64,000 nt of DNA from Gimesia algae (GTDB lineage: Bacteria; Planctomycetota; Planctomycetia; Planctomycetales; Planctomycetaceae): NCBI RefSeq assembly GCF_007746795.1, contig NZ_CP036343.1, positions 1,554,531 through 1,618,530 of the forward strand, written 5' to 3'. Below the pieces are notes generated by a model. That model saw only the letters and a program-made list of their open reading frames with translations, ran no database searches and was not told where the DNA came from. Position 1 is the stretch's first letter. The number at the start of each line of letters is the position of its first letter. Positions 17,094 to 29,566 of the stretch are shown here, in pieces. The position numbers were made by a program, and so were the translations under genes.

Positions 17094-17855
17094 TCAGCCT
17101 GCTGAAGATAACATGATTTTTCCTGATTCGTGACTGAACTCAGGCAGTACCGGGTAACAATCTCGGTCAGAACATAGTTGAATATCCTCTTCAAAGCCAC
17201 GTTGAATCAGATTACGTCCCCCCTGACTGGCACGCATCGCTGTCAGCAACCCATCTGGACGGCTGACCTGCGTTTGATAATAGTCGACGACCATCCTGGT
17301 TGCATCATCCAGCGTTAGCTTATAACTGGTCATCTCCTGCAGTCCTGCAGCAATTGCCCCTGCACAGAGACAGTCTTCTCCCGTAATCGCTCCATCTGTT
17401 CCCGCACAGACCAGGTAAATCACACCCGAACTTTGACTCAATTCATTCACGACCGCAGCCAGATTCAAAAACGAACCAATCAGTATTCGATTTGCCTGAA
17501 TCGCGCGTTTCAAAGCCCGTGTTCCATTACTCGTCGTAAACACGATCTGTTTTCCAGCAACCACTTCCGTAGAATAACGGGCAGGGGAGTTATCCAGATC
17601 AAATCCCTCGATCATGATTCCCCCGCGTTCGCCCCCGAGTAATACCTCTGAATCAGCAGTTTCATTCAGTTTCCCGGCGATCTGCTGTGCTTGCTCAATT
17701 TCTTCACAGGGAATCACAGCAGCGGCACTGGAATGCAATGCAGTCGTAATCGTAGAGGAAGCGCGAAGAATATCGAGAATCACAGCAGTGCTCCCCGAAA
17801 AGTCTTCCGGTTGTGACAAGACAGGCAGTAAGCAGGTTCGAATTTCATCAGGCAT
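17094..17855 (-). CDS. comB: Probable 2-phosphosulfolactate phosphatase
   Basis: A ComB-family protein of about 253 residues. The family removes phosphate from 2-phosphosulfolactate in coenzyme M or sulfolactate metabolism, but most bacterial members outside that pathway have unproven substrates. Recognisable blocks are VILDILRASSTITTAL near the N-terminus, LGGERGGIMIEGFDLDNSP, and TTSNGTRALKRA, which include the usual Mg-binding and substrate residues. The frame opens at a TTG (17879), but the ATG at 17855 gives the family-typical beginning MPDEIRTCLLP. A repeated 86-base element lies directly upstream. No partner genes for coenzyme M synthesis were seen, so the physiological role is uncertain. 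Confidence 0.8.
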   Translation of the reverse strand: MPDEIRTCLLPVLSQPEDFSGSTAVILDILRASSTITTALHSSAAAVIPCEEIEQAQQIAGKLNETADSEVLLGGERGGIMIEGFDLDNSPARYSTEVVAGKQIVFTTSNGTRALKRAIQANRILIGSFLNLAAVVNELSQSSGVIYLVCAGTDGAITGEDCLCAGAIAAGLQEMTSYKLTLDDATRMVVDYYQTQVSRPDGLLTAMRASQGGRNLIQRGFEEDIQLCSDRDCYPVLPEFSHESGKIMLSSAG

Positions 17856-17879
17856 GACTGATCGCGGACATTCTTTCAA

Positions 17880-17966
17880 GACTAAACTGTGTCCAGTTTT
17901 ACTATAGCGTTTCCAGGGGCCTTTGGACCGAGTATCAAAGTACGAGAGGCGCTATACTAAAATGAA
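17880..17966 (-). repeat. TIR-bounded repeat element, copy 1
   Basis: About 86 bases immediately upstream of comB match a second copy at 28662-28748, at roughly four in five positions by eye, when both are read in the direction of the downstream gene. The best conserved core is TAGTAAAACTGGACACAGT, and a second shared block is ATACTCGGTCC. The ends form an imperfect inverted repeat: TTTTACTATAGCG on one side and CGCTATACTAAAA on the other. This is what a miniature inverted-repeat element or a structured regulatory leader would look like. There is no coding potential. Confidence 0.75.
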
Positions 17967-17991
17967 AAACGCTCTCGAGGGAATCCGAGGC

Positions 17992-19263
17992 TCAGCGAGC
18001 CTTATCTGAAATATCCTTGCGGCACCAGGCCCCATCCCAGCGGATACATTTGACCGCCTGATACGCTTTCAGTTTTGCCTGACTGATGCTTTCACCAATC
18101 GCAGTCACTCCCAGAACACGACCACCGTCGGTCACGACCTGATCGTCTTTCATGGTAGTTCCCGCGTGAAACACTTTGGTATCAGCCAGTTCGGCCGCTT
18201 CACCCAAGCCGCGAATGACTCGCCCTTTTTTATACTCTTCAGGATAGCCTTCCGATGCCATCACCACACAAACAGCCGGTCGCTCGTCCCACTCCAGGTC
18301 ATCAATTTCGTCCAGGCGCTCTTCCGCAGCCGCCAGCAGCAGTTGTGCCAGGTCTGTCTTGAGCCGCATCAGTACCGGCTGAGCTTCGGGATCTCCGAAA
18401 CGGACATTGAATTCCAGTACTTTGGGCCCCTGATTAGTAATCATCAGGCCAGCGTAGAGAACTCCATTAAAAGGACGGTCTTCGATTTTCATGACGTTGA
18501 CCATCGGCACGAGAATTTTCTCGATGATCTCGTCCATCAATTCAGGTGTGACCAGGGGAGCAGGGCTGTAAGCTCCCATCCCGCCGGTATTAGGACCTTT
18601 GTCACCATCGTAGGCTGCTTTGTGATCCTGTGATGTTTCCAGAGGAACAATCGTCGATCCACTGACGATTGCCAGGATACTGACTTCCTGACCGATCAGC
18701 TTTTCTTCGATGATGACGGTTCTCCCCGCATCCCCAAATTCGCGAATTTTCATCAGAGACTTGATGGCGTCAAGGGCTTCCTGTTTGGTATCGCAGATCA
18801 AAACGCCTTTACCAGCTGCCAGGCCATCGGCCTTGATCACCAGAGGTTGTTCTTCGCGTTCTTCCAGATAGGCTTCGGCTGCTTCAAAATTGTTAAATGT
18901 CTCCGACTTGGCTGTGGGAACATTGGCCTTCCACATCATCTGCTTGGCAAATGATTTACTGCCTTCCAGTTCAGCGGCTGCCTTGGATGGTCCAAATACT
19001 GAGATCCCGGCGGCGCGCAGTGCATCTGACATCCCGGCGACCAGAGGCACCTCAGGACCGACAATCGCCAGTTGGATCGCTTCTTCTTTGGCAAAAGCCA
19101 CCATCTTCGGGATATCACTGACGCTGATAGCGACATTCGTTCCGTCCAACTGGGTCCCGGCGTTTCCAGGTGCACAAAAGACCTGACTGACACTCTCCGA
19201 CTGGGCCAGTTTCCAGACCAGTGCGTGTTCGCGGCCTCCCTGACCAATCACTAAAACTTTCAT
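17992..19263 (-). CDS. purD: Phosphoribosylamine-glycine ligase
   Basis: A 423-residue GAR synthetase of the ATP-grasp superfamily that joins glycine to 5-phosphoribosylamine in de novo purine synthesis. The N-terminal domain starts with the signature MKVLVIGQGGREHALVWKLA. The ATP-grasp core has VIKADGLAAGKGVLI and the metal/ATP residues in GVLYAGLMITNQGPKVLEFN followed by VRFGDPEAQ. Length and motif order are normal, so it should be functional. It is followed by the repeat element and comB on the same strand with about 110 bases between; these two need not be one operon. Start is an ATG with no strong Shine-Dalgarno. Confidence 0.97.
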   Translation of the reverse strand: MKVLVIGQGGREHALVWKLAQSESVSQVFCAPGNAGTQLDGTNVAISVSDIPKMVAFAKEEAIQLAIVGPEVPLVAGMSDALRAAGISVFGPSKAAAELEGSKSFAKQMMWKANVPTAKSETFNNFEAAEAYLEEREEQPLVIKADGLAAGKGVLICDTKQEALDAIKSLMKIREFGDAGRTVIIEEKLIGQEVSILAIVSGSTIVPLETSQDHKAAYDGDKGPNTGGMGAYSPAPLVTPELMDEIIEKILVPMVNVMKIEDRPFNGVLYAGLMITNQGPKVLEFNVRFGDPEAQPVLMRLKTDLAQLLLAAAEERLDEIDDLEWDERPAVCVVMASEGYPEEYKKGRVIRGLGEAAELADTKVFHAGTTMKDDQVVTDGGRVLGVTAIGESISQAKLKAYQAVKCIRWDGAWCRKDISDKAR

Positions 19264-26588: not shown

Positions 26589-28487
26589 TCAAAGCTCGCC
26601 GTGATAATGTTTAAAGGCTTCGATCGCAAAATATTCGGGAAGTCCCAGATCATTGTAAATTCGGGCTGTATTTCGAGTTCGATCTTCCGCCCGCACCCAG
26701 AATTCCCGTTTGTCCCCCCCCGGATAGAAGGCACTGTCCTTTTGTGACTCATGCTTAAAAATGGCTTCCCGTTTTCGGAGAACCACCTCCGGGCTCAGCG
26801 GAACCGCCCGCTCAATTTCATGCGGTTCATACTCTTCCCAGGCCCCGCGATACATCCAGAACTCGGGAGCCACTCCTTCTTCCACAACCACATTCACAGC
26901 ATTAATCACTGCTTCTGCACAAACCCGGTGAGTTCCATGCGGATCGGACAGATCGCCGGCCACATAAATCTGATGCGGATTCACTTCCCGCAGCAGGTCT
27001 GCCACGATGGCAATATCTTCTTCCCCGATTGGCTTTTTGGAAACCTGCCCCGTGCGATAGAACGGTAAATCCAGAAATCGCAGGCGTTCCTCAGGCACTC
27101 CCGCGACATCCGCACCGGCGGTTGCTTCTGTTTTTCGGATCAAACCCTTAATTCCCAGCATCTCTTCCGTATCCAGGTCGCCGGCTTTTTTATTTTCAAT
27201 ACTTGTTTTCAGGTTCTGTAAATGTTCCAGCACAGTACGATCATCGGCGTGAAACAGCTGATGAAACTCACAGACGAAATCGATATGCCGTAATGCATCA
27301 TGATCGAACACGGCTATATTTCCACTGGTCATATAAGCGATATAAACTTCATGCCCCTGATCGGCCAGTGTAATCAGAGTCCCCCCCATCGAAATCACAT
27401 CGTCATCAGGATGCGGACTGAACACAATCACGCGCTGAGGTTCGACGCCCGCTGGTTTGGTACAAATCCCTTCCAGCAGAGAATCAAAGACACTCTCTCG
27501 AATCTGAGCCACCGAACCGTATTTATGCAGCATCTGATGCAGGTGATTATGCAGAAAGTCTTCTTCTTCCAGCTTCAACAATGGCTTTCCCACCTCTCTG
27601 GAGAGCCAGATAACGGCTTTTTTCTCCAGTATCGGGGTCCATTCAATATTTCCGACAATCCAGGGAGTTCTCACCGCAGTCAACTCCGCAGCAGCTGCAC
27701 TGTCAACCACGAATACAGAATTGGTATGGGTCTGCAGAAAGCTGGCGGAAACATCATCAGTCACTTCGAGTTCAGCCGCTTTTTTGACGACTTGTGCTTT
27801 ATGCTCGCCCAGAGCCATGATGATAATTTTCCGGGCGGACAGAATACTGCCCACACCCATCGTGATCGCGTGATGAGGTACATTATCTTCGCCGAAAAAG
27901 CCACTCGCAGCATCACGCCGCGTAACAGGATCCAGGTTCACCAGGCGTGTCAGACTGTTCCGGGCACTTCCCGGTTCGTTAAAACCAATATGCCCCGAAC
28001 GACCGATCCCCAACAGTTGTAAATCCAAACCACCATACTGCTCAATGGCTCGTTCATACTCTTCACAGAACAGATCCACTCCCTCAGCGGGAATATCACC
28101 ACGGGGAATATGAATGTTCTCCGGCTTCACATTCACGTGATCGAAAAAGTTCTCCTGCATGAATTTGTGATAGCTGTGGATCGAATCCGGCTCCATCGGC
28201 CAGTATTCATCCAGATTGAATGTGACCACATTGGAAAAATCCAGTTGCTCGTCATTGTGCAGGCGAATCAGTTCACGGTACACACCTAGCGGAGTCGAAC
28301 CAGTGGGCAGCCCCAGAATGGCCGGATCGCCGGCATTGTTTTTCTTACGAATCAGATCTGCCACCACCCCGGCCACATATTTGGCCAGCTCAGATGACGT
28401 TTCGAAAATAACCGTAGGTACTTTCGTATGTCGCACAAATTTGGACTTGGGGGTAACATGAACAGAACGTGAAATATCGATAGCCAT
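26589..28487 (-). CDS. NagB-like deaminase fused to LmbE deacetylase domain
   Basis: A 632-residue two-domain protein. Residues about 25-290 are a glucosamine-6-phosphate deaminase/isomerase domain (LGLPTGSTPLGVYREL, TFNLDEYWPM and LGIGRSGHIGFNEPGS carry the sugar-phosphate and catalytic residues), which converts glucosamine-6-phosphate to fructose-6-phosphate and ammonia. Residues about 365-600 are a LmbE/PIG-L zinc deacetylase domain with the metal motif SPHPDDDVISMGGTL and the distal DPHGTHRVCAEAV. Similar fusions are known in other bacteria. The two activities could deacetylate and then deaminate an amino-sugar phosphate in sequence, which is inference. A second, separate LmbE gene lies 315 bases away in divergent orientation. 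Confidence 0.88.
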   Translation of the reverse strand: MAIDISRSVHVTPKSKFVRHTKVPTVIFETSSELAKYVAGVVADLIRKKNNAGDPAILGLPTGSTPLGVYRELIRLHNDEQLDFSNVVTFNLDEYWPMEPDSIHSYHKFMQENFFDHVNVKPENIHIPRGDIPAEGVDLFCEEYERAIEQYGGLDLQLLGIGRSGHIGFNEPGSARNSLTRLVNLDPVTRRDAASGFFGEDNVPHHAITMGVGSILSARKIIIMALGEHKAQVVKKAAELEVTDDVSASFLQTHTNSVFVVDSAAAAELTAVRTPWIVGNIEWTPILEKKAVIWLSREVGKPLLKLEEEDFLHNHLHQMLHKYGSVAQIRESVFDSLLEGICTKPAGVEPQRVIVFSPHPDDDVISMGGTLITLADQGHEVYIAYMTSGNIAVFDHDALRHIDFVCEFHQLFHADDRTVLEHLQNLKTSIENKKAGDLDTEEMLGIKGLIRKTEATAGADVAGVPEERLRFLDLPFYRTGQVSKKPIGEEDIAIVADLLREVNPHQIYVAGDLSDPHGTHRVCAEAVINAVNVVVEEGVAPEFWMYRGAWEEYEPHEIERAVPLSPEVVLRKREAIFKHESQKDSAFYPGGDKREFWVRAEDRTRNTARIYNDLGLPEYFAIEAFKHYHGEL

Positions 28488-28801
28488 CAGACGAATTTTA
28501 CCTGTAAAGCAAGAAAGAAGCGGAAACCATTCTCCATCAGAATCACATCTCTATTTTTAACGATTTCACCGGACTAAACCACGAATTTAAAGTAACCACG
28601 CGAACAGTAGCCCCGGTGTGCGTGTTTTTTTTATGAATGTTTATTATAACTAGAGCACATCACATTTTACCATAGCGTCTTGCGAACTAATATACTCGGT
28701 CCCAATTCCCAGGGAGACGCTTTAGTAAAACTGGACACAGTCTAGTCTGATGAAAACCTCACTATCAATAAATTGACCTAAATGTACAGAGAGAAATTTC
28801 C
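28488..28801. other. Divergent spacer between the two LmbE-type genes
   Basis: This spacer of about 310 bases is AT-rich in its first half and contains copy 2 of the inverted-repeat element (28662-28748). It must carry the promoters of both divergent genes. No gene is recognised in it. Confidence 0.5.
28662..28748 (+). repeat. TIR-bounded repeat element, copy 2
   Basis: This copy matches the element at 17880-17966 in the same orientation relative to the downstream gene. It starts CATTTTACCATAGCGTC and ends with GACGCTTTAGTAAAACTGG followed by ACACAGTCTAGTC, so the two ends are imperfect inverted repeats. It lies about 55 bases upstream of the PIG-L deacetylase ATG. Confidence 0.75.
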
Positions 28802-29566
28802 ATGGCAAATCAGGCAGAATCTCCACGAATTCTCGCGATTCACGCCCATCCTGACGATATTGAAATCCAGTGTGCCGGTACGTTAGCCCGGCTGAAAAGT
28901 CTGGGATGCCACATTACGATTGCCACCATGACCGCCGGCGACTGTGGCAGTGCGGAAATGGGACCGGTGGAAATTGCCAATGTCCGCCGCGCCGAAGCGA
29001 AAAAAGCCGCCGATATGCTGGGAGCCGATTACATGTGCCTTGAGTTCCGCGATCTGTCTATCATGATTGATCAGGATTCCCGCCAGCGGGTCACCGAAGC
29101 CGTCCGTAAAGCACGTCCGGACATCGTCATCACCGCTCCTCCGGTTGACTATATGAGTGATCACGAAATGACCAGCCGCCTGGTTCGGGATGCTTGTTTT
29201 GGCGCTTCTGCCCCCAACTACACCACCCATCAGTTTCAGCCCGCTCCTCCCACGGAAAAGATCCCGCATCTGTACTATGTTGATCCCATCGAAGGTTGCG
29301 ATTACTTCGGGAACCCAATCGAACCGCAGTTCATCATCGATATCTCAAAAACATTCGACCTGAAAATCAAAATGCTGGCCTGCCATGAAAGCCAGCGGGC
29401 CTGGCTTCGAAAACAGCACGGTCTGGATGAATATCTCGACGGAACCGAGCGCTGGTCAGCAGCCCGCGGCAAAATAATTGGTGCTGCTTACGGCGAAGCC
29501 TTCGTCCAACATTGCGGTCACCCGTATCCTTCAAGTAACCTGTTACAGCAACTCCTCGAGAAATAA
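28802..29566 (+). CDS. PIG-L/LmbE family deacetylase
   Basis: A 254-residue zinc-dependent N-deacetylase of the LmbE/PIG-L family, related in sequence pattern to bacillithiol-pathway BshB and GlcNAc deacetylases. The metal motif is [20 protein letters not shown] near the N-terminus, with [17 protein letters not shown] and a downstream [12 protein letters not shown] histidine region. No signal peptide is present, so it acts in the cytoplasm on a soluble substrate. The position beside the NagB-LmbE fusion suggests an amino-sugar substrate. A 56-residue membrane protein follows closely and may be co-transcribed. The start is an ATG; the exact substrate is unknown. Confidence 0.88.

Follow-up and report, generated by a model that had tools for sequence, protein, structure and literature searches.

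Two similar segments upstream of comB and a PIG-L gene of Gimesia algae are very probably copies of one abundant miniature inverted-repeat element

Two related segments and their gene context

The window, a 64,000-nucleotide stretch of the Gimesia algae genome, contains two similar intergenic segments, which a repeat finder paired as reverse complements (positions 17879-17975 and 28652-28748; 97 nt, 77% identity). A first-pass annotation of this DNA had noticed both this similarity and the imperfect inverted repeats at the ends of the segments, and both observations held. In an alignment of the family described below, each segment had an 89-bp core, at 17886-17974 on the plus strand (copy 1) and 28653-28741 on the minus strand (copy 2), and the two cores aligned without gaps, with identical bases at 68 of 89 positions. 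Copy 1 matched the family consensus at 72 of 89 positions and copy 2 at 75 of 89.

Copy 1 lies between purD, encoding phosphoribosylglycinamide synthetase (17992-19263, minus strand; PF01071, E 1e-79), which is upstream, and comB, encoding 2-phosphosulpholactate phosphatase (17094-17855, minus strand; PF04029, E 2.4e-69), which is downstream. It is flanked by TAA on the left (17883-17885) and TCG on the right (17975-17977). Copy 2 is located between a gene for a PIG-L family protein (28802-29566, plus strand; PF02585, E 2.1e-27), downstream of it, and a divergent isomerase/PIG-L gene (26589-28487), and is flanked on each side by TAG (at 28742-28744 and then at 28650-28652 when read in the direction of the element). 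The distance of copy 1 from comB is about 30 bp when measured to the likely ATG at 17855, which was read from the sequence (the listed open reading frame starts at a TTG at 17879), and that of copy 2 from the likely ATG of PIG-L at 28802, also read from the sequence, is about 60 bp. These values are close to the 25 and 55 bp first proposed, and the two copies do have the same orientation relative to the gene that follows.

Alignment of 14 orthologous upstream regions from the genus detected a conserved intergenic block (28592-28651, plus strand) that separates PIG-L from the divergent gene and ends in TTATTATAACT, a −10-like sequence; the block has a presumed promoter role. Copy 2 was inserted immediately 3′ of it and, since it directly follows the block ending in TTATTATAACT, is probably in the PIG-L leader, where it may have an effect on PIG-L.

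The comB gene was found in 14 of 17 Gimesia genomes, and 13 of these loci lacked the element; the site of copy 1 was empty in the related genomes G008 and G012. A close PIG-L orthologue was also found in 14 genomes, three of which carried the element at this position (this genome, G008 at L203 and G012 at L202), the other eleven being empty.

Copy number, boundaries and empty sites

The best conserved core noted in the first-pass annotation, TAGTAAAACTGGACACAGT, is the conserved left end of the family read on the opposite strand. A 17-mer from this left end, with up to two mismatches, was found 240 times in the 7.93-Mb genome (110 and 130 by strand), while the same pattern reversed was found twice (0 and 2), so that the similarity is far beyond chance. 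A BLAST search of this genome with copy 1 yielded 228 first-look candidates, of which 40 were scored, and at least 43 matches. A profile search of 1.29 Mb, comprising the window and 62 further stretches of this genome, yielded 66 matches with E ≤1e-4, of which 65 covered at least 60 model positions; provided that the sampled density holds, the genome contains about 400 copies. The profile was built from copies selected for a conserved left end and, therefore, strongly diverged copies are under-counted. Hundreds of copies thus exist beyond the two in the window, and the outcome of a genome search returning only these two sites did not arise.

The consensus core is ACTGTGTCCAGTTTTACTGTAGCGTCTCCAGGGCCATTTGGACCGAGTATAATAGATTGAGAGACGCTATGGTTAAATGTGATGCGCTC. 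It has no coding capacity, its length was exactly 89 bp in 132 of 157 end-to-end copies and its terminal inverted repeats are imperfect (19 of 29 positions by our own count). Copies arranged in tandem, repeating about every 92 bp, were present in at least three places.

The distribution of the family was examined in 59 genomes, consisting of 17 Gimesia genomes, including this one, and 42 others from the family and class. All 17 Gimesia genomes had a match with E ≤1e-3, as against one weak match (E 2.3e-5) among the 42 others. The number of first-look candidates per Gimesia genome was highest in this genome (306), followed by 218 and 212, and fell to 7-10 at the lowest; such strong variation among species is as expected for bursts of copying. 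When a named collection was searched for an exact 25-mer, 28 stretches were returned, each of which came from a Gimesia or an unclassified planctomycete record; the flanks of one G012 copy recurred in a Gimesia record (L126 and L165), which identifies the genus. We interpret the element as a genus-specific miniature inverted-repeat transposable element (MITE) of about 90 bp without a gene. A literature search on mobile elements of Gimesia gave no papers, and among the titles listed for planctomycete MITEs or intergenic repeats and for IS5 MITEs none named this family, which is an ordinary kind of element, abundant and not found described in the literature searched.

The boundaries were constant. 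Among the 157 distinct end-to-end copies, the left triplet was TAG in 115, CAG in 13, TGG in 7 and TAA in 6; the right triplet was TAG in 90, CAG in 16, TAA in 13, TCG in 10 and TGG in 9; and the base preceding the left triplet was T in 84, C in 58, A in 12 and G in 3. The 17 best-scoring copies all had TAG on the left and 16 had it on the right, so that 16 were flanked by TAG on both sides. Copies are positioned as YTA|G...C|TAR, and the triplet counts agree with YTAR as the insertion site and with a TA or TAG at each side of the element. Another repeat, about 110 bp long and bordered by CTAG, has the ends TGGAGTGTCATTTTTAAA...GACAAAGCA and was observed at L041, L038, L055 and L011 of this genome and at L162; each end occurred five times in the 1.29 Mb with up to three mismatches, and MITE copies were seen at its end CTAG.

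Whether the triplet is duplicated on insertion was examined at sites differing from TAG. Right-hand CAG was present in 3 of the 13 copies with left-hand CAG and in 13 of the 144 others, a difference that was not significant (p = 0.13). Six of 21 selected copies were examined for empty sites: two fitted duplication (L104, with CAG on the left, on the right and in the empty site; L031, with TAA on both sides and in the empty site of G006), one was against it (L029, with CAG on the left and in the empty site and TAG on the right), two were uninformative (L009 and L048) and one (L032) had no spanning match. A second site against duplication came from the G008 block comparison described below, in which one G008 copy had GAG on the left and in the empty site and TGG on the right. 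The four informative non-TAG sites are, hence, evenly divided between duplication and an element-borne TAG. The first-pass annotation had remarked that random position together with target duplications would make the element simply a MITE: placement is indeed untied to gene starts (see below), and duplication is not proved.

Comparison of a 410-kb block of this genome with 400 kb of G008 covered 24 copies here, of which 10 had empty or near-empty sites (projected gap of −14 to 4), several of the latter aligning loosely, and 5 were shared (90-121). Four more had no flank match, and five had a projected gap near −100, their flanks being, by our own reading, repeats. In the reverse comparison, 8 of 17 G008 copies had empty or near-empty sites here, 5 were shared and 4 were not interpretable. 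These empty sites demonstrate the mobility expected of a MITE. One further copy, L182, sits within a repeat that was seen uninterrupted, in a comparison by eye, in an array at 4.96 Mb. L105:1-1300 (4960001-4961300 of this genome's contig) is occupied by tandem repeats whose period is 230 bp, and the units of this array contain a stretch weakly resembling the right end of the MITE in reverse (E ~0.015).

Folding, decay and position of the copies

In the one-strand consensus fold the ends of the element pair with each other. There is also a 4-bp hairpin at the left tip (core pairs 1-12 to 4-9; ACTG-TGTC-CAGT at 17886-17897 on the plus strand in copy 1 and, on the same basis, 28730-28741 on the minus strand in copy 2), and a central hairpin at core positions 16-73 (17901-17958 on the plus strand and 28669-28726 on the minus strand, respectively; counted on 126 copies). 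The z score of the fold was −1.8 for copy 1 on its own strand and −1.2 on the opposite strand, and copy 2 folded better than shuffles (z of −2.6 and −2.5, respectively). The consensus fold contains seven G-U pairs that can form on one strand only. The left-tip hairpin was paired in 95.6% of cells in 126 copies. Its pair 1-12, which was A-U in 111 copies, C-G in 8, G-U in 2, U-G in 1 and of another type in 4, provided the sole clear double change (A-U to C-G); the C-G form lies largely within one subfamily and perhaps represents a single event.

Over the 24-pair structure, the cells paired, the doubly changed cells and the covariation score exceeded those of 500 out of 500 shuffles; 64 of the 500 shuffles reached the observed count of doubly changed pairs, and 52 of them that of pair types. 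The covariation score was 0.095, compared with 0.034 to 0.046 for slid versions of the structure, and the 37 doubly changed cells in 126 copies fell within the range of 29 to 55 for the slid versions. End-to-end pairing contributed 3 doubly changed cells, and the apical helix in another register had 26, a number reached by 5 of 500 shuffles. Little weight was placed on these counts, as related copies inflate them. Single changes at Watson-Crick pairs led to G-U in 107 cases, A-C in 131 and other combinations in 162; the excess of A-C over G-U indicates that pairing was not favoured during decay.

These folds bear on a reading in which the element moves as a single strand, a HUH enzyme of the Y1 type cutting beside a YTAG target and reading the left-tip and central hairpins; the right TAG would then be borne by the element and no duplication would occur. 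L029 and the G008 copy flanked by GAG and TGG fit this reading, as do the joint change at pair 1-12 and the one-sided G-U pairs. L104 and L031 fit duplication instead, the joint change may be one event in one subfamily, and none of the 31 Y1_Tnp loci examined, out of 53, bore the element at its ends, although a half copy lay about 375 bp past the stop codon at one of them. We regard this reading as unlikely. Its fuller form, in which the family would be a new non-autonomous single-strand element whose folded strand is moved by a HUH-type enzyme recognising the tip and central hairpins at YTAG targets, and which is distinct from the RAYT-like genes of the genus and their palindrome, appears about equally unlikely. 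Those Y1 transposase genes (L183-L185 and L282-L285), which are RAYT-like, adjoin a palindromic repeat, AAGGTGTCAGGAACCTTA, that is unrelated to the MITE.

The positions of the copies were assessed with a home-made gene prediction, according to which coding sequence makes up 76-81% of the DNA sampled. None of the 63 copies classified was inside a predicted gene. By type of gap, 65 copies (tandem ones counted singly) were distributed as 39 tandem, 10 convergent and 16 divergent, compared with 38.6, 5.8 and 20.5 expected from gap length. Relative to random placement inside the same gaps, the median distance to gene starts was high (224 bp versus 178 bp expected; 1.3% of 2000 simulations were as high) and that to gene ends was low (68 bp versus 95 bp; 1.8% of simulations were as low), while copies no more than 60 bp from a start made up a fraction of 0.15 versus 0.20 expected, which was not a significant difference. 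Placement is, hence, not tied to gene starts. With respect to the gene that follows, the copies are randomly oriented (36 versus 32 overall and 9 versus 9 within 120 bp).

Conservation was examined in the five copies common to this genome and G008. Identities within the element were 50/84, 68/94, 67/89, 66/93 and 80/93, and those of the testable flanks were, in the same order, 67/108 (with many gaps), 116/146, 61/72 and 80/89, with 144/149 and 45/57 for the two flanks of the PIG-L copy. The element was less conserved than the testable flank in four of the five cases, and the PIG-L copy was intermediate between its two flanks. No match to Rfam 15 was detected in the window at gathering scores or in a permissive search around one near-consensus copy.

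These data also concern the other proposal of the first-pass annotation, a structured control element common to two genes, whether as a transcribed RNA or acting in cis, retained upstream of chosen genes. Both window copies do precede genes in equal relative orientation; copy 2, which probably lies in the PIG-L leader, has a better fold than shuffles and occurs in three genomes; and the whole structure exceeds all shuffles in cells paired and covariation score, with 21 of 47 doubly changed cells being Watson-Crick. However, the placement bias runs in the opposite direction, orientation is random, single changes do not favour pairing, most shared copies are less conserved than their flanks, Rfam gave no match and nearly all comB loci are empty. 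A control element is, accordingly, highly improbable. An origin as a REP or BIME palindrome that a RAYT has spread, to which the intergenic location, palindromic form, high copy number and presence of GTAG and CGTC in the central stem would correspond, is the least probable reading, as the element is about 90 bp long, whereas REPs measure 20-40 bp according to PMC3733652, its GTAG is inside the stem, and several RAYT-like genes of the genus adjoin a different palindrome, with the element at the ends of none of the 31 loci examined; a RAYT parent was not supported.

Mobilisation and relation to known elements

The two window segments are, we conclude with a probability of about 0.93, copies of one MITE rather than a shared control element, because there are hundreds of copies, with empty sites, a YTAR target, intergenic location and random orientation, and because decay does not favour pairing. 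The initial guess of a miniature mobile element was thus correct, given the high copy number, constant ends, target and empty sites in relatives. The chemistry of movement that we infer is as follows: a copy would move as DNA, with a transposase supplied in trans recognising both ends, and would enter a YTAR site (TTAG or CTAG in most cases), giving TAG or TA on both sides. After insertion the copy, having no detectable function, would decay, and copies in coding sequence or near promoters would presumably be removed by selection.

The likeliest mobiliser, and probably, though by no means certainly, the actual one, is an IS5-type (DUF4096) insertion sequence of this genus, because a similar tip and the same kind of site occur together in the genus. 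DUF4096 (PF13340) transposases are ones that we take to belong to the IS5 family. Both tips of the MITE, GACTGTGTC and GAGCGCATC, fit GANNNNRTC. In the sampled DNA, this pattern follows 256 of 85,815 TA dinucleotides. Among 68 DUF4096 loci in the genus, 34 were examined with an end search that demanded TA on both sides, so that TA at these tips is present by construction. Twelve of the 23 distinct 12-base tips started with GA and ten fitted GANNNNRTY; among the remainder are mis-called ends, two with a three-base shift, and a further subgroup. The DUF4096 element that is most repeated in this genome is bounded by CTAG sites. The likeness extends to 5 of the first 9 positions, ends after nine bases and was a post hoc observation. 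While these insertion sequences resemble the MITE in having TA on both sides within YTAR and tips of the form GANNNNRTC/T, they differ in being about 0.9 kb long, in bearing a transposase and in their inner terminal sequence.

No DUF4096 locus of the 34 examined had the MITE ends as its own tips, the tips being evidently mis-called in three. Among these loci a DUF4096 element as direct parent was rejected, as tips and site agree but the full ends differ; at L321, L322 and L330, 19 bases left over from the MITE right end lay outside the insertion sequence. A search of the 1.29 Mb, 16% of the genome, for an autonomous element with MITE ends was also negative: all 58 left ends with up to four mismatches overlapped profile matches. 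Two profile matches consisted of left-end fragments alone, and a scan of six neighbouring genes detected no transposase. An IS630-type parent was rejected, as there were two DDE_3 matches in the genome and the MITE was at neither locus. At L312:856-1959 an IS5-type element is located between a whole MITE copy and a partial second one in opposite orientation, and the same IS5-type element also interrupts an IS630-type (DDE_3) transposase gene at L061:125-2163.

Like other bacterial MITEs, for example Nezha, NEMIS, RUP and ERIC (PMC3733652), the Gimesia element is small, lacks a gene, has imperfect terminal inverted repeats, occurs in high copy number between genes and can form hairpins. It differs from them in having a sequence of its own, a distribution that, in the genomes searched, covered Gimesia and one weak match outside, and no parent insertion sequence found. 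It shares with REP/RAYT systems the character of a high-copy intergenic palindrome, whereas REPs are shorter, carry the tag at the foot of the stem and have RAYT genes alongside.

The MITE family accounts for a very abundant intergenic repeat of Gimesia. It also provides a caution, in that pairs of similar upstream segments need not mean shared regulation. With insertions of differing ages, and with copy numbers that run from a few to several hundred per species, the family offers material on MITE bursts in planctomycetes.
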